Assembly (NCBI RefSeq): GCF_963675165.1
Contig: NC_087383.1
Coordinates: 5,248,839 to 5,312,838, forward strand
Length of the DNA: 64,000 nucleotides
Source of the DNA: Halichondria panicea
Taxonomy: Eukaryota > Porifera > Demospongiae > Suberitida > Halichondriidae
Direction of reading: 5' to 3'
A model generated the notes under the pieces. The model searched no databases. It saw nothing but the letters and a program-made list of their open reading frames with translations, and was not told where the DNA came from. Numbering within the stretch: position 1 is the stretch's first letter; every line of letters starts with the position of its first letter. This document shows positions 3,805 to 57,211 of the stretch, piece after piece. A program made the translations under genes and the position numbers.

Positions 3805-4444
3805 TCAGATAATTACTAGATTCTGCAGGAAGTCAACAGTTTCTTCATACAGAGCTATACCATAGTCATCACACTCTCTTGAAAGGTCAATACTCGTACA
3901 TAATTGTTCATAATCCTCTTCAGAAATATTCACCCTATATACATGTTAATTAATGATTAATAGCTTGTCTCGAGTGTGTACATTTAGGGGGAGGGGGAGT
4001 ACTCGCATGGGGGTACACTATAATTATTATATAGCAAATTAAACCATACACTCATATTGAGAATCTTTGGGGAATACATTATACATTGTCCTTCCTTCTT
4101 ATACTGTATGTAAATGTAGTACTGAAAAAGTTATGCACTTGTACTATAGCGGGTATATTTCGAGAGTATAAACTTTCGCGGAAAGATAGCTATAGAAAGG
4201 TTTTCGTGGAATAGCATGCAATGTGGGTATAAATGTTCGCGGTACATGATTTATCAGCGAGAGTTTATACCCTTGAAATAATTATACCTGCTACGGTAAG
4301 TAATGTTATAACAGAGTATTAGTATTAATTACAACTTGCCTGTGGATCCTCATACAACACCGACGGCTGATCATTATCCATCCCATAATCATTATTTTTC
4401 AAAAAGGTCCATGGCTTCCAGTATTCTGCAACCTTAGGAGACCG
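3805..4444 (-). pseudogene. Likely C-terminal tail of the integrase-core gene, beyond an in-frame stop
   Basis: After the TAG at 4445-4447 the same minus-strand frame stays open for 36 codons (RSPKVAEYWKPW... then DYGMDNDQPS), ending at a CAG|GCAAGT GC-type donor. This resembles the tail of this integrase family. About 400 bp further on, beginning near 3934 after TATATAG, is an exon-like stretch containing NISEEDYEQL and ECDDYGIALYEE, which stops at 3805-3807. Joining the two at the visible splice sites does not keep that last frame. Either the splice differs from my reading or the tail is decaying. The intron contains the TIR element at 4146-4296. Confidence 0.5.
4146..4296. mobile_element. 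Small imperfect-TIR element in the gene's last intron
   Basis: The left end TAGCGGGTATATTTCGAGAG and the inverse of the right end, TAGCAGGTATAATTATTTCA, align with a short gap and continue into GTATAAACT. About 150 bp, no coding capacity. Confidence 0.5.
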
Positions 4445-5827
4445 CTATGGAATAGTTGCAGAGGAGTATGGTTGTGCTCTGTACGAATTCCATGCAGATT
4501 CCAGCCATCCTTGAATGCAGTTAACGACTTGTTTATTCTTGCAAGAAACACGTGGTGAAGAGCAAATAAATGCAGCTGGGTTTAAGGTTCCTTTCTCTTC
4601 CAAAAAGTAAAACAATCTATAATACAGTTGTGTGACACAGCGATGCATGTCCCTCCAGATGCGCTCGATACGTTGGTTGTGGACTGAAGATCCTGTGATG
4701 ATGCTGCCTCGTCCAGGTCCACGATGTTCTAGCATATACCGTGCCACTAACATATTCTCACGACCTTGGTCGGTTCTCACACGTGAGGGCAATCCGTACT
4801 TCCGTACACCCCCAGTAAAACCCTCCAAAACTGTTGATGCACGGTTGTTTGTCGAGCATTTCAAAAAAACCAAAAGTCGACTAAATCCATCGATACCACA
4901 GTGTGTGACGAATCGCCACCTCACAAGCTTATGGTGCCCATCTACAAAAATAGCAAGTATAATTTAAAGCTGGCACCTAACAATGCGATGTATACATGTA
5001 TCGTACATTTTAAAAAGAGAAATGGGAACCGAAGTTTGTCCTCAAAATCAAATTGTCCTCAAAATCAAAAGAGACTCACCTAAATGCCAGAGTGAATTAG
5101 GCCCTGGAACAGAGTATGGCCGCCTTGAAGTACTGTTGCCACCCCAACGTAGAGCTGAATTAAGGGGATCGACTCTTCTGATCACTGACCGCACCCTCTC
5201 TCTAGTCACAACAACATCCATCGCTCTTAAATGGCCCATCATCATGATTTCACCACAATATGGATTGTCATGACGTAGCTGCTGAATAATCCCTGTGAGA
5301 TGTTCCCCACTCACTTCTATGCGTTGGTTTTCTAAAATGCCAAAATCTCTTCTACGCCTGTAGATAGTCATACGTGACACACCTATGAGGCCACTTATTT
5401 CAGTCCAGGAAAAGTTCAAACATGTTAGATATTCTATCTGACTCTGTTCAATTGAAAAGGATGGACGTCCGGGCGTTAAGCCTGTACGGGTGACTGATGC
5501 TCGATACATTGACACAGCAGACATTGATCCTAACTCATCCAGATAAGTGTCCCAATAACACAACAGTGATCGAATGCAAGAGGCCAACTCATCTACCATT
5601 TCTCTATACGTAGAAATAACTTCTTGCTCCTCAACTTCAAGTTCATTTTCGGGCTCAAGAGCCATACAGAGTGTCTCACTTATGGGGTCCAAGTTTCTGA
5701 GTCCATTTTCTAGTCTTTCTATTATATAGTTAACAAAACTTTGGTTGGCTGTTCCTATCTGGTTCTGGCAAGAATCAAAAACCTCACCAACCTCTATAAA
5801 GAACGTGCTCCAACCAAAGTGTTCCAT
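4445..5827 (-). CDS. Integrase-core (DDE) protein, spliced; transposase-like or domesticated
   Basis: Two exons: 5827-5080 and 4941-4445, with a 138-bp GT-AG intron whose junction falls inside the codon for the first catalytic Asp. Residues 1-110 are acidic and of unknown role. A helix-turn-helix follows ([18 protein letters not shown], then [14 protein letters not shown]), then an integrase lead-in, then an RNase H-fold core. The core carries D in NSLWHLDGHHK, D in VRTDQGREN and E in [10 protein letters not shown], so the triad is complete. The strings VRWRF, GGIDGFSR-like and [14 protein letters not shown] mark a metazoan integrase-core family (Pfam rva_4 type) related to eukaryotic DNA transposons. 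The protein would cut and join DNA in the nucleus if active. Start chosen: first Met of the long exon. An in-frame TAG (4445-4447) comes before the family's usual tail. No TIRs were found around the gene, so domestication is possible but unproven. Confidence 0.8.
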
Positions 5828-5875
5828 TTCTAATTAATTATCACTGTGCCAGCTCTAGATCTGCGCAGAATTGAT

Positions 5876-12165: not shown

Positions 12166-12279
12166 GTTAGCTATTTGCAACGTGTTTAACCGAATAGCCG
12201 CGGTTATGATTTCATACGTAGTACCGCCAAGGGCGTATAAAAGAAAAGAGGGCATGCAACTCCACTATCTAGTAACGTA

Positions 12280-12868
12280 GCGTGCGTGTGTGTGTGGGGC
12301 GTGTGTGTGTATGTGTGTGTGGGGGGGGTGTGTGTGTGTGTATGTGTTGGGGGTGTGTTGTGTTGGGGGTGTGTGTGTGTGTGTGTGGGGGGATGTGTGT
12401 GGTGTGTGTGTGTGGGGGGATGTGTGTGTAGTGTATGTGATGTGTGGTGTGTGTGTGTGTGTGTGTGGGGATGTATGTGTGGTGTGTGTGTTTGTGTGTG
12501 TGTGTGTGGGGATGTGTGTGTGGTGTGTGTGTGGTGAGTGTGTGTGGGGGGTGTGTGTGTGTGTGTGCGTGTAAGTGTGTGTGTGTGTAAGTGTGTGTGT
12601 GTGGGGGGGGTGTATTTGTGTTTGTGTGGGGGTGTATGCGTGGTGTGTGGGTGTGTGTGTGTGTGTTTGTGTGTAAGTGGGGCATGTGTGTGTGTGTGGG
12701 GGGTGTGTTTGTGTGTGTGTGTGTATGGTATGTGTGTGTGTGTGTGTGTATGTGTGGTGTGTGTGTGTTTGTGTGTGTGTGTGTGTATGTTATGTGTGGT
12801 ATGTGTGTGTGTGTGTGTATATGTGTGGTGTGTGTGGGGTGGGGGGGGGGGGGGTGTGTGTTTGTGTG
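12280..12868. repeat. GT/G-rich microsatellite array
   Basis: About 590 bp of TG repeats with GGGG runs (TGTGTGGGGG blocks) ending in a G tract near 12840. The strand is strongly G-rich, with potential for quadruplex or Z-DNA. Open frames through it are spurious. Confidence 0.9.
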
Positions 12869-12944
12869 CTCTGATGCTGAGGATAGCTACAAATTTTGGA
12901 CTCTACTGAAATAGCTACTAGTACGTATACGTGTGTTCAACCTG

Positions 12945-16364: not shown

Positions 16365-17589
16365 TATTCCACTATTTTAAGTTGTAAACCAAAATGGATG
16401 TGACCTCATAGACAAATTTCGTTTCTGCTGATCCTGCTTCTCCGTGTAAATATTGAACACATATATAGTGAGAACACATATATAGTGTCTTTAGTCACTT
16501 TGTGCCTTCACACAATATTATTTGTGTACATAATTATAAGCAGTTGCTAGGTAATGATGAGATACCTCTGGGGTCTGCGCTACCTGTAGTTACAAGTCAT
16601 TTCAATGTGTGGTTTATGATAATGATAATGAAGTATTTATTCTGAATTTTCTTTTTTTAATTAAAACTAAATCTTTCTAATCTGATAGGAGTAATAGGAG
16701 TAGAGATAATAGCCAGTAGAGATAATAGCTAGCCAGTTTTAGCATCGTCACCACGCCCATTTCCGACACGCCCACTTTTGAAACCCACTTTTGGACTGTC
16801 TGAAAACCAAGCTGAAAACCAAGAAAAGTTCCACCACCTACAAAAGTTCCACCACCTACTCACTCTCTACTCACTCTAAAACTCTACAACAGCTCAATCT
16901 CAAGGTATAATTATACATAATATACGTACATGTGTATATAGGCATGTGTATATACGCTTTGACCTCACATGTACATGTGCATGTGTAAATTTGTACATAC
17001 CAATTACCTATTTACTTTTCAGGATTACGACACTTTCACTCAACCGCATCCACTTAAATCTGTGTCATTGGAATTGTTTCAACAGTTGGTGCTTTCTTGC
17101 AGGTCTTCCTCGTCAACAAAATTCACAATTACGTAACATCCTAACAGTGTCTTTGTGCTTGAAACGTCAGCGCCAGACCTTGAAGAAGGAATTGAGGTAT
17201 TCGATGCACTTCTGCTAACTAGTAAAAGCGCCAGTACTCTAAACCACACAAGCCAAAAGACCAAAAGTAAATTGTTACCAGGGTAACAGATTGATTACAG
17301 CCCACAAATGAGTGCTACAGCTAGCATGCAATTTACACAACTAATTGAAATATCAAGCAAAGAAAAGAAAAGACAAGCTACTGCCTAGGCATATAATTAT
17401 AATAATAAATTATATCTTACAATGTAGCAAACAGAAATTGCAAATACAAGCCTTGGCATACAGTCAAAAGGGCACTTTTCACACACACATACAACCACTC
17501 CTACCATCCACGGCAATTGTTCACTCAATCTGTTGGCCCAACTGTTATCATTTCAGATTCTCCACTACTACTTACTGTAGTACATTGTT
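16365..17589. other. Non-coding stretch
   Basis: No gene recognised. Contains short tandem duplications (for example GAACACATATATAGTG twice near 16456, and GTAGAGATAATAG twice near 16700). Confidence 0.5.
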
Positions 17590-18000
17590 ACTGAGACAAG
17601 TAAGTACGCAGACCAAACTATTAAAAGTGGATCCTCGACAAGCTCAATACATATTGATGGGCGTAGTTACGCTCCCATCAATAGAGGATTATTCACCTAT
17701 CGCATCCAAGATCTCAAGGGATCGGTTCAGAGATATTCGTCGCTACCTCCATTTTGCTGACAACACAACGCTCCCAACGCTCCCAACTCCCGGCACCCCT
17801 GGTAGCGATCGCTTCGCAAAAGTACGTCCCCTCATCAACAAAGTCAATGCGCTCGTTAGACCGGGACGTGGCCGTGGCTGTTGATGAGGCAATGATTAAG
17901 TTCCAGGGAAGGTCGCCCAACAAGCCTATAAGGCAGGGCACAGTTGTCATGTGTACTTTGATAACTAGTTCACCTCACTAAACCTGACTTGGAAAAGGAT
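17590..18000 (+). pseudogene. piggyBac-like transposase fragment (DDE_Tnp_1_7 type)
   Basis: The first frame gives ILMGVVTLPSIEDYSP, then ISRDRFRDIRRYLHFADN and RFAKVRPLINKVNA, the characteristic piggyBac/PGBD order ahead of the first catalytic Asp. The frame then shifts near 17845, and the next frame carries RDVAVAVDEAMIKFQGRSP, the DEAMI region holding a catalytic Asp. Both flanks decay: no other catalytic blocks are clear downstream (18000-18360), though RGDYLMRQK near 18060 may be a further remnant. A 9-bp tandem duplication (CGCTCCCAA) lies in the coding part. It is non-functional. No TTAA-bounded ends were found. Confidence 0.75.
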
Positions 18001-31579: not shown

Positions 31580-33955
31580 AGTGTAATTTAATTTTGATAG
31601 GTGTCCTTGAACATTTTATTCCTTGAACATTTTATTCCGTGGAACTCCCGGTGGAACTCGCAAAAATGGCCTAAAAATGTTGTGCCTCAAAAATTAATTA
31701 CCTGCTTTATGGTGGACTTTTTGTTCTTTTGTTAATTTCAGGTACCAGACAAAAGTCAAAAGCAAAAGAGCCAGGGCCATCAAAACGTCTTTGTGTAGTA
31801 AGTCATCACATTAGTGTGGTTTGTTGGGCTCCTCCCACGAGCCTTTGATGTGGACGAGCCTTTTCCTCTGCTGTACTGTACCTATGTGCCCTAAACCCCC
31901 CCAGTAGTTAATGATATTCATAACACCACACGCGTGTGGTACGCTCACGTAATGACTTCATAGTTGTTGTGGTTTGTTGTGTGTTGTCAGCATCCTGAAT
32001 ATGCCATATCCAAGTATCTCCATCCAAACTACCGGTATGGTACATGGTACACAATAACAGGATGGTACACAATAACAGGATAACAGTCTTCCTCCATTTG
32101 CACATTGCTTCCTGTTAGGCATTTGTAATTTTCACATTTTTCGAGGGCGAATTACTCTTCGCTATATGGTTATGTAACACCACAATGCTATAGAACTGTG
32201 CTTTGTTACATGTTAATTTGTTATTGTAATTAGAACTCTGCTTAATATAAACTATTTCTGTACTTTATAGGTTGGAAAGCCACTTACATCATTTCTACTT
32301 GCTGTTATTTTTACATCAATGTGTTATACCAGCCAAACAAACAGCCAAACAAACCAAACAGCCAAACAAACCAATGCGAAAGACGAAATAAGAAGTTTAG
32401 GTATTCACCTACCTTCGGAACTGCCTGGTGGATGCTTCACAAATGTAATTTGGTGTCCAACAGTAATAATCATATACGGGTTTGCCTGTCGGGACACATC
32501 TACTACAATACACGAATCTCTAATACACACTGCTAGGAACTTGATCAGTCCATCAGACTTAATTGAAGGAAACCTGCTGGCCGATTTCAACTGTGCAAGA
32601 AAGTACTTATTCCCAACAACTCTCTCATACTCTCTCATTCAATTACGTCTATCCCTGACGGCATTGCTGTAAAAACACAAACAGTTTTTGAGGATCACTT
32701 TTGAGGATCAACCTTGTATGAGACCGAACGAACAGGTGTATTGTTAGATGAGCTGCGGAAGGTACCGTATGTAAAACACAACAACATTCATATTCAGGAA
32801 CCGCAAGTCTTTTTTAAAGAAATGAAAAAAGAAAGTATCTGCCCGTTCACGGGAGGGGGGGACATGAGGGGGGGACATGAGGGGGGGACATATACATTAA
32901 CAAAAGCGGCTTATCAAATAACGATATTGGTGTATGCCTCTTAAGATAGCTAGAGGATACAGACTTAGACAGCTCACACCCTGAGCCCCCTGAGCCCCAC
33001 TTCTGACCCTTCTCAAAACTTCCATGGACCAAGTGTCATTGAATGTAAGGTGGGCAGCAGCAGCTCACAATCCCAAAGACAAATTGAGCTACAGTTAAAG
33101 GCAAGCTAGTGCTGTGTCATCAATTATATAATGTGTTGGCAAACACGATTGCTTCAGAAGATCATTCAAATGAAAATCATTCAAAAAATCAAAAAACATT
33201 ATGAGGCTAAAAGATATTACTACCCTGACAGCGTCCACAAATTTAGATGTTTTGAAACTATAAATGAATTTCGAAGACAATACATTCCTGTACACACGAA
33301 GGTTTAGGTACTGGGTCACTACACAAATGAGGCATTGTCATATATTAGGGATATAGGGATATCGAAATACAAACAAAAATGAACTTATTTTTTGTTTGTC
33401 TGATTTATGCACCTTTGTCTGTATAATACCTTTGTCTGTATAATGTCTGTGTCTGTGTCTGTGTCTGCACCTATTGTCTGTGTCTGTATAATGTCTTTTG
33501 TTAATTTCCAAGTTCTTGCCCACTGCACAAAAACAAACTGAAAACTAAAAACGTGAAAATGATTTTGCGCATGCTCATTGACCTGGCACATGTTGCGATC
33601 ATACAAAGTGGATCAAGGTGCACAAAATGAGCTCTGGTACTAATACTAGCATGAGTAATCAAACAGACAGAAGAGTGATCGTCACTGTTTTACAGCAGCC
33701 TTCTTCTGCTGTCACTAATTCTACTTTGGCACTACTTTGCCACTACTTTGCACCATCAGTAAGATTGGCACCATCAGTAAGTACGTGTAGATCTAAATTT
33801 ATTTTTTGAATGGGTACTATTTAGAGTCAACACCAAAGATTTACTAAAACGATTCAGTAAAGACCTGATTCTATGTCTGTTAGCCACAGCAGCAGTAACA
33901 ATTTTAGTAGACTCTATAATTATAGTAGAATGAAGAGCCAGGATAAAGAGCAAGG
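31580..33955. other. Stretch with weak coding hints only
   Basis: A plus-strand open frame at 32270-32672 follows a plausible TTATAG acceptor (VGKPLTSFLLAVIFTSMCYT) and could be an exon, but no family is recognised. Three GGGGGGACATGA repeats lie near 32855, and GTCTGTGTCTGT repeats near 33418-33495. Confidence 0.3.
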
Positions 33956-33999
33956 TTAATAGCAAGGTAGTACTTGTAGCAAGTGACAGTTGGAATGTA

Positions 34000-34620
34000 G
34001 ACCAAGAGCAAGAACTGGAGCCAAGTGCATGCTGAGCTGCAAATCGCCCAAATGTACAAGTGCCACAATGGGTTGTTACTGTCTGTGGCCTCTATTCAGC
34101 AACAGAACATGCAGTGGCAGCAGAAACTGTGGTTTATTTGCTATTGCCGCTGCAGTGGAGTAGGAACAGCTAAAAGGTTGGAGGGGCCACTTGGGTGGTG
34201 CGAAGCACTACCCAAGTGGCGCTCCCGGCGCTGGAAATTTTAAAACTGGAAGCTACACTAGCTGCGGCCTAGCTACAAGCTTATTAGCTCTGAACAAGAA
34301 CTAATATACAGCAGAATTGTTAAAACATGTTGCTGTAAAACAAGAGTATGAAGCGTCCAGAAAAAGCGGTTTTTTATTTCTGCTTACAAATTCATGCTTT
34401 ATCCTTGATCAATTGGTTGGTTAAAACACCTATTCAACTCAGGAAGGGTGGGCTGATTCACTGCCCCCCCCCTGTTCCTACTCCACTGCGCTGCATACCA
34501 CGAATTACAAGGAGACAATTTGGATCACATCATCCTAAATGAAGACAAAATAAGGCACAATCTTGTACGTTGTTTTGAAATGAGAAACTAAAGAAGATTT
34601 TCGAAGTCAAAAGAACTGAA
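34000..34620 (+). pseudogene. Ulp1 protease fragment of the decayed Ginger1, interrupted by an insertion
   Basis: AELQIAQMYK, then HNGLLLSVASIQQQ matches the intact element's protease. Reading resumes beyond 34493 with HELQGDNLDHIILNEDK and LVRCFE. In between, at the Ala-Tyr of the CGLFAIAAAYHAL region, sits the 336-bp element at 34153-34488. The catalytic Cys region is frame-shifted and the PHD finger is gone. Confidence 0.85.
34153..34488. mobile_element. Nested TIR element in the Ulp1 remnant
   Basis: Perfect 17-bp TIR CAGTGGAGTAGGAACAG with CGCTG duplicated on both sides (34148-34152 and 34489-34493). Removing it restores the expected codons of the host sequence. The CAGTG start is hAT-like, but the duplication is 5 bp rather than hAT's 8. 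An internal hairpin GCCACTTGGGTGGTG/CACTACCCAAGTGGC lies near the left end. Confidence 0.85.
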
Positions 34621-35053
34621 TAGTGACCAGAGAGATTTTCTAGCATTGTGATTACTATAATTATACTGCTCCTACAACTCGTGGTATCATTATACGTATT
34701 AAAGTATCTCCACTCAGTTGACTATATAGTTGTAGATCTAAATAAACATGTATTTTTAGGCTTTCGTTATCTTCCACTGCTGTTTTTGTTTTTCATGTAA
34801 TTGAAGTAACGATAGTTAAGGAACAGCTATAGACTAAGACAATCACATCTTGATTGATTGACTGCCTTTGAGGATGTACTTAGTATAGCCATCCGCTGAA
34901 ATCTAAATTTGGGGGGAGTCATTCGTCACTAGGAGGCAGTGACCGGGGGAGTAATTTACTCCTAGGCATGAGTGACCGGGGGTCACTGGTGACTAGGTAG
35001 GAGTGACCGGGAGTCATTATTTAGGGGAGTCACTCGCGCCTATGACACCGGGG

Positions 35054-40117: not shown

Positions 40118-40377
40118 GACCTTTTCTTCCCCTATGTTTATTGTGCCGGGAGTCATCAGTGGACTGCACAACTAAATCTAGTTTGCAGTCTATCATTACA
40201 TGCACGTACGTATGATCCAGTGTGGTTGCTCTGATAACGACTAACCCGACCTTTTCTTCCCCTATGTTTATTGTGCCGGGAGTCATCAGTGGACTGCACA
40301 ACTAAATCTAGTTTGCAGTCTATCATTACGAGCACGTACGTATGATCCAGTGTGGTTCCTCTGATAACGACTAACCC
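40118..40377. repeat. Two 130-bp tandem copies of the 22.1/31.1-kb repeat
   Basis: GACCTTTTCTTCCCCTATGT begins at 40118 and 40248. The units are nearly identical through CTGATAACGACTAACCC. Confidence 0.9.
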
Positions 40378-52766: not shown

Positions 52767-52770
52767 CCGG
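52767..52770. other. CCGG target-site duplication, left
   Basis: CCGG directly precedes the TGTCA terminus. The partner is at 57208-57211. CCGG-type duplications are diagnostic of Ginger1. Confidence 0.9.
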
Positions 52771-52873
52771 TGTCATAGGAATGAATGACTCCCCTAAATA
52801 ATGACTCCCGGTCACTCCTACCTAGGCACCAGTGACTCCCGGTCACTCACGCCTAGGAATAAATGACTCCCCC
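52771..52873. repeat. Ginger1 left terminal inverted repeat
   Basis: About 100 bp alignable to the inverse of 57115-57207, with gaps. It is made largely of TGACTCCC and GGTCACTCC motifs, which continue to about 52925 beyond the alignable part. Confidence 0.85.
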
Positions 52874-53356
52874 GGTCACTGACTCCTAGTCACGAATGAC
52901 TCCCCCCTGGAAAAAATGACTCCCCCGAAATTTATATATGAACACTGATCCATAGAGCTAAAGAGACTTCAGGGGCTATACTAAGTACATGCATCCTCAA
53001 AACCTGTCACAGTGTGACTATACAATCAAGCTCAAGACTGTTATCAGGACTGCATGCATGCTATCTGTGAGAGACCTGTTTAATACATAGTATGACTATA
53101 ATTACAGCTGTTCCTTATATACTGTAAACTGGTTCAGTTTAGCTATTAGTACCTATAGTACTTATACTACATTGTACACTCTGTTCACATTTTCACACGT
53201 CTCACGGTCACTGTAAAGCAAAACTTATAATACAACAACATCCATCAAAATAACAAATAGATCTACAGTGCATGAAAAACAAACAAAACAACAGTGCAAA
53301 TTAACAGTGTATAAACAAAAACAGCTAGTGGAAGATAACGAAATGCTAAAAAAATT

Positions 53357-56300
53357 CTATCTAGATCTACAAGTAGGACAAAACCAATCTCCAAGTGGAG
53401 ATACTTTAATACGAACACATTTATAATGATACCACACAGTACATGTGTCGCACTGGACCATTTCATCATAACAGTCAGGGCGGAGACAAGGGCAGTATAT
53501 CGTAATTACTATGCTGGAAAATCTTTCTGGTCTCTTGCGGCTACTAACATCTTTTGACTTTGGAAATCTTCTGAGTTTCTCATTTTCAAAGCAACGCACA
53601 AGATGTGGCCTCATTTTGTCTTCATTTAGGGTGATGGTATCCAGATTGTCTCCTTGCAATGCGTGGTATGCAGCGGCAATTGCAAACAAACCACAGTTGT
53701 TACTGCCACTGCTCTGCTGTTGAATGGAGGCCACAGATAGTAACAGCCCATTGTGCGCTATTAAAGGCTTATACATCTGTGCGATTTGCAGCTCAGCACT
53801 TGGCTCCAGGTCTTTCCCATATTGGAAGCAGCTATCAAAGAGGAAAAGTTCCCCCTTGATGAGTGCTGTCGCAATCCAGTGATGCCTCTCTGTTACAAAG
53901 AATATCTGCACGGCTGTATAGGATATATATGATATAATTATTATACGGTGCGGCCAAGGATGAGGATGAGGTATAATTATACCAATACTATAATAATACT
54001 ACTATTAATTTAAGTAGAAATTATACCTGTGGCTTCACTACTAGTGACTGCAGGAAAGGACATCTTCTGAACCAGAAGAGTAGAATAACAGCCTTCAATA
54101 TTTGGAAATTGCATTCGCATCAGTTTGTGCGCAGCATACATATGACGGTCAGAAAGCATCCCGCTCTCAGCAAGAACTACATCCTTGTCTCCCGTCCTCA
54201 GGTCCAAATCCTTCACCCAGTAACTTGAATTCTGTCGAATGTGCACACAATAATTATAATGAACGGTTTATAGTGTGCATGCACATAATTATTAATAATA
54301 ATTGTAATTAACGATAGCTCCTGTTAACAAGTATATAACTATATACCTTTCTTGTTACAGATTGAGTAGTCCTTTGCTTCTTCAAAGGTGGCTCCATAGA
54401 GGATGCAGTCTTAACCTGAGAGAAGGGGGCGTCTCGCTTGCGAGAGGAGTGAGCATCTGGCTTGTGAGAGGAGGGGACGTCTGGCTTGTGAGAGGAGGGA
54501 GCGGCTGGCTTGTGAGAGGAGGGGACGTCTGGCTTGTGAGAGGAGGGAGCGGCTGGCTTGTGAGAGGAGGGGACGTCTGGCTTGTGAGAGGAGGGGACGT
54601 CTGGCTTGTGAGAGGAGGGAGCGGCTGGCTTGTGAGAGGAGGGGACGTCTGGCTTGTGAGAGGAGGGAGCGGCTGGCTTGTGAGAGGAGGGGACGTCTGG
54701 CTTGTGAGAGGAGGGAGCGGCTGGCTTGTGAGAGGAGGGGGCGTCTGGCTTGTGAGAAGAGGGAAAATCACAATTTTTTTCCCACAGCTTCTAAAAATGG
54801 AGTGTATAATTATAAAGAAACATGAAACATTAAATTAATATCGTAAAGAGAAATGTAATGTAATTATAATTAGCTTCAAAATCTAGAGACACATGCATTA
54901 TACCTTGCTTGGGTCTTTCATAGGAGTACTCGTCAAAGAAGGGTTAAACTGATCGAGAGATTCATCGTGATGGTTGTCTGATAATTCGGAAGGATCCGAG
55001 AGAGAACTATGTTGATCAAAGATAGGTTTTTCGGAGTCTGAGCCATGGTAATGCTTTAACCGCTGTTGGTTAACAGCCTTTTTTAAGGTCTTTCCAGTCT
55101 TAGGGTTGGCAATCTTAAAGACTCCCTTGTCCAAGCACTCCACCACCGTGTATGGGCCTAACCACCGAGGCTTCAGCTTGTCTCCCTTCTTACATTCCCT
55201 GGCTGAATTCCTCAGCCAGACCAAAGTCCCAGTCTTAAACACCTATATAATTAGAAAAATGACATGGCTATGACATTAAACGAGTAATGAAAATAGCCAT
55301 GCTACGCTCATACAATGATATAGCCTGCTCACCCTCTTGTCTGCATGCTTCCGATCATAGTACATCTTGTCCTTTTCTTGGGCATTGTCAATGTTCTTCT
55401 TGGCTTTGCTGTGGATATCATCCTTTAACTTTGTAACAGCTCGAGCATGGGTCATAATGGCACTAATGTCCCAGCTCTGCTCAAGTTCACCCTCGCTGCC
55501 TAACTCCAGTTGAATAGGGAGTACAGGTTTCCTGCATGTGGAATGTTATAACAATAATGCATGCATGCCAGATTATCATGTAATTATTATAATAATTATA
55601 ATTATGAACAACTCACCGACAGAACATCAACTCGAAAGGTGAATACTTCGTTGCCTTTTGCTTACTCGTCCTATAAGCAAAGAGAATAGCGGGCAAGTGG
55701 TAGTCCCAGTCGGTCTGTGAGTCATTCACATATTTGAGTAGTGCTGTTTGAAGTGTTTGATTGAAACGTTCAGTTAGCCCGTTGGTTTGTGGGTGGTAAG
55801 CTGAAGTGACCCTGTGCTCTGTTCCAGTGAATCGAAAAAGCTCTGTGTTGACCTGATTAACAAACTCACGGCCTTGGTCCGATATCAGCACCTCACAAAA
55901 CCCAAACCTGCGTGCATGTATAACCATAATCATTAAATACGTGTTATTATAATTATGTGTAGAGATGCATGTGATTACAATTTCACACACATGCATAGCT
56001 TACCGACAAAACAAGTTGTACAGGAACATTGCCACTCCAAATGCAGTTTTGTCAGGGAGTGGGGCTGCTTCAGCCCATTTGCTAAAATAATCGACCAATG
56101 TTACCACATATTTGCTGCCATTGGGTGTAATCGGCAAAGGTCCTATCAAGTCTATGCCAACCTATAAAGTGAATTACATAATTATAATTAATATATGATT
56201 GTGCTCAAAACAAATAATTATTATGCAATGCCATAAAAATTATAGTGTACATATACCTGATGCCAGACTTTGGGTTGTACAGATATCGGATGGAGTTTGG

Positions 56301-56781
56301 CATTTGTCTTTACAAATGCTGGGTTCATTCTCTGGCACTGGCTGCAGTTCTTTACATACTCTCGAATCTCCTCCACCATCGACTTCCAGTAGAATCTAGA
56401 ACATATCTTGTCTATAGTTCTATCTCTTCCAAAGTGGCCACCAGCTGTTCCTGCATGCATGCGTATAATAGATTACAAGCATACATAATTACATACATGC
56501 TCTATTACCTACTATTATCATTTTACCAAAGCCATAATAATTATTATACCTGCATGGCAATCTTCGAGGATTCTTGATTTCTCCTCATTGCTGCGCACAC
56601 ATATCCTCCAGTCAGCTGCATCAGCAGCTTTGGTGTGCTTCTTGTAATATAGGCTACCATTTTCAAACTTAAAGTTCTGCCTGCATTTTCTTCTAAAGTT
56701 TGCCTTCTCTGTTTTGCTGTTAATAGTAGGAGGGTATTCTCCTTTTCGTAAATAGTTTTCAATCTCTTGTAAATTCTCCAT
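53357..56781 (-). CDS. Ginger1 transposase: integrase, Ulp1 protease and PHD finger
   Basis: Nine exons: 56781-56550, 56450-56257, 56161-56004, 55907-55617, 55531-55333, 55242-54904, 54790-54347, 54231-54027, 53913-53357. All introns are GT-AG and phases agree throughout, giving 2619 nt (872 residues). Domains in order: YPYY-type motif (GEYPPTINSKTEK); HHCC zinc finger (CHAGTAGGHFGRD to NCSQCQ); integrase core with D in VGIDLIGP, D in ISDQGREF, E in GLTERFNQ; GPY motif (PRWLGPYTVVE); an SHKPDVPS/SHKPAAPS repeat with a basic KKQRTTQ; a Ulp1/C48 protease with H in RHHWIA, D in LFDSCF and C in NNCGLFAI; a Cys/His PHD-type finger (MVQCDTCTVWYHYKC to FCPTC). It should cut and join the element's ends in the nucleus. 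The protease, SUMO- or ubiquitin-like specific by family, may act on the protein itself or host modifiers (inference). No broken key residue was seen. Confidence 0.92.
54427..54762 (-). repeat. 24-bp coding minisatellite in Ginger1 exon 7
   Basis: Thirteen SHKP units plus one decayed SRKR unit, 8 residues each, alternating between DVPS and AAPS endings. It is open in several frames on both strands. The true frame (SHKP) is fixed by the flanking splice phases and by the continuation into FSQVKTASSMEPPLKKQR. Confidence 0.9.
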
Positions 56782-57114
56782 TTCTTGCTGCCTTCTTCAA
56801 ATGACATGACTGTGAACGATCACTGGTTTTATACCATAGATCTAGCTGTCACTTGCTGTCAACTACAGGATAGAACAATTAACCTTGCAACTCTGCTCTT
56901 CACACATTTATAGGTCTACATTCCAGCTGTCACTTGCTGTCTACTACAGGATGAACACTTGCTTCATTGCTACCTTGCATGCTACTACTAACCTTGCTCT
57001 TCATCCTGCATGGCTCTTCATTCTCTACTATATGTCTATGAGGAGTGCATGAATGTACTCTTGCTACTATATACTTACATTGATGGCAACATTGGCGGAA
57101 CAAACATGCGCATA
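56782..57114. repeat. Ginger1 5' region with a duplicated block
   Basis: AGCTGTCACTTGCTGTCAAC + TACAGGAT...ACCTTGC...CTCTTC occurs near 56845 and again, diverged, near 56927, upstream of the transposase start. It probably holds the promoter, but no clear TATA box was chosen. Confidence 0.5.
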
Positions 57115-57207
57115 GGGGAGTCATTTATTCCTGGGGGAGTCACCCACACCTTAGGCAGGAATGACCGGGGAGTCACTCCCACCGGGGAGTCATTCATTCC
57201 TCTGACA
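57115..57207. repeat. Ginger1 right terminal inverted repeat
   Basis: GGGGAGTCATTTATTCC...GGAGTCATTCATTCCTCTGACA, the inverse of the left end. Ends at TGACA against CCGG. Confidence 0.88.
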
Positions 57208-57211
57208 CCGG
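57208..57211. other. CCGG target-site duplication, right
   Basis: Exact partner of 52767-52770. Confidence 0.9.

Follow-up and report, generated by a model that had tools for sequence, protein, structure and literature searches.

The window analyzed here, a 64,000-nucleotide stretch of contig NC_087383.1 of the sponge Halichondria panicea, contains a 4437-bp element that is very probably an autonomous DNA transposon of the Ginger1 type, intact and very young, with a single spliced gene on its minus strand encoding a predicted transposase of 872 residues. The element lies between two copies of CCGG, and its ends, read directly from the sequence, are TGTCATAGG...CCTCTGACA, which are of the TGTCA...TGACA type; both the flanking CCGG and these termini had been claimed in an original prediction made from the letters of the window and are present (Table 1). 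The same prediction described terminal inverted repeats (TIRs) of about 100 bp; these repeats span about 106 and 97 bp and are imperfect, with query positions 1 to 106 matching positions 4349 to 4445 at 74% identity. Over the best-matching outer 35 nt, counted together with the CCGG and neighboring flank, the two sides are 89% complementary.

Copies of the element and their insertion sites

The host genome (131.5 Mb in 39 contigs) was searched by DNA and yielded at least 119 matches, from which 20 full or near-full and 20 shorter loci were fetched; L029 and L030 of the shorter set were counted as near-full, giving 22 copies. Twelve of these, the window copy (L009) through L020, are spread over ten contigs and differ from the window copy by 0 to 9 substitutions (at most 0.21%); in every one the frame is open over 856 to 874 codons and all 16 splice dinucleotides are intact. 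The genome-wide check for near-identical copies that accompanied the prediction was answered by a dozen intact ones, the window copy included. L010 and L011 differ from the window copy by one identical substitution and nothing else, and the window copy has a substitution of its own, at 53950, that is absent from the other eleven. Small indels occur in seven of the young copies (L014 to L020), and deletions in the terminal repeats only in L018 and L020. Among the older copies, L024 has an open 848-codon frame with damaged ends and one flagged acceptor (possibly an alignment effect), and frames are broken in 9 of the 22 copies overall. The repeat array of exon 7 varies mostly by whole 24-bp units, being shorter than in the window copy in seven of 10 older copies and longer in two, among the events listed.

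Both ends were located in 17 of the 22 copies, which form the basis of the flank counts. Identical 4-bp flanks border 15 of the 17 (8 CCGG, 3 CCGT, 2 ACGG, 1 CCGA, and 1 TGGG), beyond what chance would give, including 11 of the twelve young copies. Combined with their reverse complements, the 15 sites converge on a symmetric core close to GTA-CCGG-TAC, which is preceded by A and followed by T in 20 of 30 cases. Empty sites, another check proposed with the prediction, were sought for two of the 15 sites and were found as paralogous sites for both: the joined flanks of the window copy matched 38 listed paralogs across the junction at 78 to 84%, and those of L012 matched 40 listed repeat copies at 93 to 100% (40 candidates scored in each case). 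Two paralogs were read for each site, and all four contain a single CCGG at the junction. Because near-identical intact copies, matching flanks, and empty sites occur together, the genome sequence shows a recent transposition burst of this Ginger1 family rather than to a domesticated gene, as the claim of a recent insertion had anticipated. The element has moved recently and may well still do so.

Further matches trace the wider history of the family. A 160-bp query from the left end matched 41 places in the genome (40 of 71 candidates scored). L022 and L023, which lie at different loci, have two frame-shifting 4-bp exon insertions in common, from which a dead element was probably mobilized in trans. 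The shorter matches L036 to L047 (about 70 to 75% identity) lack most of the gene but retain the ends and a portion of the Ulp1-PHD region. Three of them (L038, L044, and L046) are derivatives of 1.5 kb in which both ends are present; in L044 the left end is 99% identical to the young element while the body is old, as conversion or recombination would produce. Within the window, positions 33921 to 35047 hold a decayed relative of about 1.1 kb, of which the end at 34911 to 35047 is 92% identical to the left end of the element on the minus strand and the remainder 72 to 73% identical to the 1.5-kb derivatives. Two more minus-strand TGACTCCC motifs at 40148 to 40285 are perhaps an old end of the same family.

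The gene, its protein, and rival readings

Nine minus-strand exons, joined through eight GT-AG introns of 85 to 115 bp, give 872 codons and a stop, exactly the frame that had been predicted; if exon 9 instead starts at a second acceptor eight bases further on, the frame stops early at codon 710. In this protein Pfam identifies an integrase zinc finger (Integrase_H2C2, PF17921, E = 5.7e-20), an integrase core (rve, PF00665, E = 1.3e-9), and a PHD finger (4.5e-7), all above cut-offs. The catalytic residues claimed for the integrase are present as D146, D205, and E241, the last two separated by 35 residues (DD35E), and the GPY at residue 387 aligns with the GPF of Ty3. A YPYY-type motif, EYPPT...FENGSLYYKK in residues 9 to 52, was recognized by inspection of this protein's own sequence. 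The best sequence matches in the PDB are Ty3 Gag-Pol (top), foamy-virus integrase, and PHD fingers of the YNG2/ING/TAF3/SPP1 type.

The Ulp1-like protease is assigned because the element aligns with five relatives from the same genome, among which are matches to the Ulp1 model Peptidase_C48, and because the H, D, Q, and C residues are invariant in all six proteins; these we take to be the Ulp1 catalytic residues. Three of the six members match Peptidase_C48, the best at 7.9e-8. A profile of the six members matched PHD structures in the PDB, and an Ulp1 structure was absent among the best 60 of 193 matches. Exon 9 alone (184 residues), folded without an alignment, gave a mean predicted local distance difference test score of 33, which is uninformative.

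From this arrangement of parts, the integrase (zinc finger, DD35E, GPY) would bind the repeated terminal motifs, free or copy the element, and join it to a target whose palindromic sequence resembles GTA-CCGG-TAC. A proline-rich repeat linker separates it from the Ulp1-like SUMO/ubiquitin-like protease, which may strip SUMO or a ubiquitin-like modifier from proteins of host repair or chromatin where the element inserts. ING-type PHD fingers bind histone H3 trimethylated at lysine 4. It is plausible that the C-terminal finger, which resembles those of ING, YNG2, TAF3, and SPP1, recognizes chromatin, and it may help to locate H3K4-methylated regions.

Table 1. Positions of the element and its parts in the window, and of two related families at their own loci.
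Feature	Position	Strand	Basis or note
Left target-site duplication CCGG	52767..52770	.	Sequence; flank comparison; single CCGG in paralogous empty sites
Right target-site duplication CCGG	57208..57211	.	Sequence; flank comparison
Whole Ginger1 element, 4437 bp	52771..57207	-	Ends and spliced gene
Left terminal region: imperfect TIR of about 106 bp, six TGACTCCC motifs	52771..52930	+	Self-comparison, motif scan
Right terminal region: TIR partner, four minus-strand TGACTCCC motifs	57115..57207	-	Self-comparison, motif scan
Exon 1: ATG at 56781; YPYY-type motif region	56550..56781	-	Motif by inspection
Exon 2: most of H2C2 zinc finger	56257..56450	-	
Exon 3: integrase core, D146	56004..56161	-	
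Exon 4: integrase core, D205 and E241	55617..55907	-	
Exon 5: downstream of integrase core	55333..55531	-	
Exon 6: GPY motif at residue 387	54904..55242	-	
Exon 7: linker, 24-bp in-frame minisatellite (13 octapeptides)	54347..54790	-	Simple pattern
Exon 8: N-terminal part of Ulp1-like protease	54027..54231	-	
Exon 9: H, D, Q, C of Ulp1-like protease; PHD finger; stop codon	53357..53913	-	
Family B, 3402 bp	L049:932-4333		CCGG duplication, same order of parts
Family C, 3544 bp	L050:775-4318		CCGG duplication, same order of parts

Several observations weigh against reading the element as an intact, autonomous, and perhaps active Ginger1 transposon. The 4-bp flanks of L014 and L029 (2 of 17) do not match. 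The Peptidase_C48 model has no Pfam match at E ≤ 1 in the element's own protein, and the predicted Ulp1 H-D-C residues are supported through the alignment with relatives. The likeness to Ginger1 is supported by comparison with published descriptions, and the suggestion that the element is perhaps still mobile fits the genome sequence. Counts of replacement to silent changes, comparing those fixed or shared among old copies with those private to one old copy (random expectation 2.65:1), are borderline for the whole protein (21:24 versus 81:44; Fisher p = 0.050), not significant for the integrase (10:7 versus 39:12, p = 0.21; fixed changes alone 4:1), and indicate no constraint on the linker (9:4 versus 17:12). 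The Ulp1 region differs and speaks in favor of the transposon reading (0:10 versus 17:15; Fisher p = 0.0026), in a test that comprises 10 and 32 changes under a domain split chosen after seeing the data. The copies compared have common ancestry, and private changes also fall under the random expectation. A protease region without amino acid change on shared branches hints at a role for the protease in spread.

The rival that we regard as a serious, if somewhat improbable, possibility is that the element is structurally intact but silent, its burst being over and all copies repressed or short of a host factor. Activity is not visible from sequence, the older copies decay, as the nine broken frames attest, and the frame-shifted L022 and L023 have their two insertions in common; against this, the twelve intact copies are separated from the window copy by so few substitutions over 4.4 kb, and just two of them have lost terminal-repeat sequence. 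A domesticated host gene derived from Ginger1, like GIN1 or Imagin, would account for an intact, intron-rich gene, since the published host genes have six to eight introns in the available text of their descriptions (PMC2836005, PMC12863088), but a host gene would not be expected in a dozen near-identical copies spread over ten contigs, with the 4-bp flanks matching in 11 of those copies, TIRs kept, and empty paralogous sites present. Copy number and duplications refute this reading, which we consider scarcely credible. An integrase fragment of a Gypsy long terminal repeat (LTR) retrotransposon is suggested by the 32 to 36% identity of the integrase to four Gypsy-type integrases of the same genome and by Ty3 Gag-Pol as best PDB match. 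The protein nevertheless has no Pfam match to reverse transcriptase or RNase H at E ≤ 1, its gene has introns and an Ulp1 and PHD tail, the terminal repeats are inverted, which speaks against LTRs, and the integrase is nearer to those of families B and C, themselves with CCGG duplications; a Gypsy origin in this sense is extremely improbable. The intact autonomous Ginger1 transposon stays the favored reading. Its importance lies in the combination, within one assembly, of a dozen intact near-identical copies, empty sites, and related families, through which excision, target choice, and the role of the protease become testable; according to the founding paper (PMC2836005), it is not known how Ginger1 leaves the site that it occupied.

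Junctions between elements and small insertions

Ginger1-Ginger1 junctions at one CCGG are a new finding of this analysis. L020, which has matching CCGG on both sides, abuts a family C element (L050) at a single CCGG, and L014, L024, and L029 likewise abut a family C end, the last with CCGT. Genome-wide, TGACACCGGTGTCA occurs in 10 places, compared with 1 for the reversed control and 0.3 predicted from composition, and all 10 join two Ginger1 ends, drawn from three families, exactly at one CCGG. Three of the 10 are the junctions of L014, L020, and L024; at each of the remaining seven, a family C end meets an end of this element (1), family B (2), or family C (4), with one of the C partners matching over just 20 bp and one of the B partners over 35 bp. 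The half-sites themselves are not in excess, since TGACANNNNTGTCA occurs in 322 places, below its reversed control (457); composition predicts 0.6 CCGG among the 322. Other spacers recur too, for example, TCAT and AGGA, among the matches listed. At one place (C6) the coordinates indicate a chain of C, C, and this element. A chance model that counts each of 253 family C candidates as two duplications and takes the genome to contain about 140,000 CCGG sites (scaled up from the 68 of the window) gives a probability of about 5e-7 for four junctions in the 18 copies with the left end located, and of about 4e-5 for three (without L029, with its CCGT); the test is post hoc, and its sites are unweighted for the ACCGGT preference. 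The figure of 253 is a first-look count for the end of family C, of which 40 were scored; the end of this element gave 71, likewise with 40 scored.

The junctions suggest a target rule. We tentatively propose, as a quite possible explanation, that Ginger1 transposases in this genome steer insertions to the CCGG duplications of resident Ginger1 elements, across families, producing head-to-head tandem arrays of TGACA-CCGG-TGTCA and one apparent three-element chain. Steering might operate through a palindromic GTACCGGTAC-like core with the abutting TGTCA or, alternatively, through transposase bound to the end of the resident element, and if true it would amount to a self-seeking insertion strategy. 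Repair or recombination between neighbors, or a shared preference for rare open sites, would produce junctions without target choice: either order of insertion yields an identical structure, and the unmatched outer flanks of L014 and L029 fit rearrangement in those two copies. That origin seems unlikely to us given that every TGACACCGGTGTCA place unites ends of the three families exactly at one CCGG (two of the right-hand partners, however, by matches of just 20 and 35 bp) and that L020 is flanked by matching CCGG on both sides. In the literature searched, mostly by title, no description was found of Ginger1 insertion at one another's duplications.

Small insertions held by a minority of copies were surveyed in L014 and L020 to L030. 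Of 18 distinct 4-bp insertions, 16 convert a dinucleotide XY into the palindrome XY-rc(XY)-XY, where rc is the reverse complement (random 4-mers, 1.5%; tandem duplications, 12%); examples are CA to CATGCA and TG to TGCATG, with CT, AA, TT, AC, and GA behaving likewise. Of 14 2-bp insertions, 12 place TA or AT next to an identical dinucleotide (11 to 23% expected), and the palindrome form is found in none of five six-base and neither of two eight-base insertions. In the window, hexamers of this form number 620 on both strands, compared with 306 under a second-order and 537 under a fourth-order Markov model. Behind the pattern could be some process of mutation or repair from which the genome's TGCATGCA and TAATTA tracts start. 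In the four copies of family B, eight indels of up to 12 bp, including one 4-bp insertion, are none of the palindrome type, leaving the rule unconfirmed beyond the element's own family, and the literature search found no relevant account of such insertions. An origin as transposon footprints was considered and rejected, as the larger insertions, judged by eye, are without a 2-bp duplication of a variable dinucleotide. Among these, L029 has a 149-bp insertion resembling a TA-duplicating miniature inverted-repeat transposable element, and L021 has at element position 4327 a 61-bp near-perfect hairpin with an apparent 9-bp duplication, a minimal foldback element.

Elsewhere in the window, two adjacent minus-strand frames (4448 to 5833) have the appearance, by eye, of an integrase-core gene that includes a helix-turn-helix part, and a plus-strand frame (17345 to 17881) resembles, also by eye, part of a piggyBac-type transposase. 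Long low-complexity CA/TG-rich stretches occupy 1628 to 2596 and 12207 to 12902.

Relation to known systems

Ginger1 was described by Bao, Kapitonov, and Jurka (2010) as having TIRs of 40 to 270 bp, TGTNR ends, and 4-bp duplications of CCGG or CCGT/ACGG (PMC2836005, available text), and the Ginger1 identity claimed in the prediction finds support in the following published traits: duplications, TIRs, ends, H2C2, DDE, GPY, YPYY, and Ulp1/PHD. The 5' TGTCA fits TGTNR, and the 8 CCGG and 5 CCGT/ACGG duplications among 15 compare with published frequencies of 75% and 24%. A C-terminal OTU or Ulp1, sometimes with PHD, is found in Ginger1, and the element has PHD by Pfam and Ulp1 through its relatives. 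In the parts of the founding paper seen, Ginger1-9_HM of Hydra combines a Gypsy-type integrase (H2C2, DDE, and GPY) with C-terminal Ulp1 and PHD, as this element does (PMC2836005). Ginger2/Tdd, with AT-rich RTATAY targets and neither GPY/F nor YPYY, was rejected, the element having CCGG-type targets and GPY.

Families B and C resemble the element in their CCGG duplications, TGTCA...TGACA ends, and order of integrase, repeat linker, Ulp1, and PHD, but their integrases are 47 to 50% identical to that of the element and their TIR sequences and linker repeats are different. In a small tree (LG+G4, query-anchored alignment) of integrases from this genome and Ty3, the element groups with families B, C, and E, and the branch that separates them from Ty3 and four Gypsy-type integrases has a support of 88; on the Ginger side the branch supports are 48 and 38. 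L052 is an intronless frame with the C-terminal part of an integrase, a repeat-rich linker, and an Ulp1-PHD part, the last two domains lying below Pfam cut-offs. L053, an intronless open stretch of 913 residues, has Ulp1 above the cut-off, a weak PHD match, and no integrase among Pfam matches at E ≤ 0.01, and it could represent a different kind of element, or a host gene, that likewise ends in protease and PHD parts.

Gypsy/Ty3 LTR retrotransposons have a homologous integrase with H2C2 and GPY/F, whereas the element has inverted ends and introns and no reverse transcriptase match. GIN1/GIN2 and Imagin have the same integrase ancestry and several introns but are host genes, Imagin being single-copy without inverted repeats, in contrast to the multicopy element with its ends and duplications (PMC2836005, PMC12863088, both as available in part). 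Three further comparisons are with the available text of the founding paper (PMC2836005): twelve copies lie within 0.21% of one copy here, compared with less than 1% from the consensus for some elements of one published family; no mention was found there of a 24-bp in-frame repeat linker like that of the element; and its eight introns compare with 0 to 4 in the published table of 16 families, a descriptive and not a defining feature, and with 2 in Ginger1-9_HM. The element adds a new member to Ginger1 that is young, intact, and of an ordinary type, useful for its copy number, empty sites, and junctions with other Ginger1 elements, and unusual in its number of introns.

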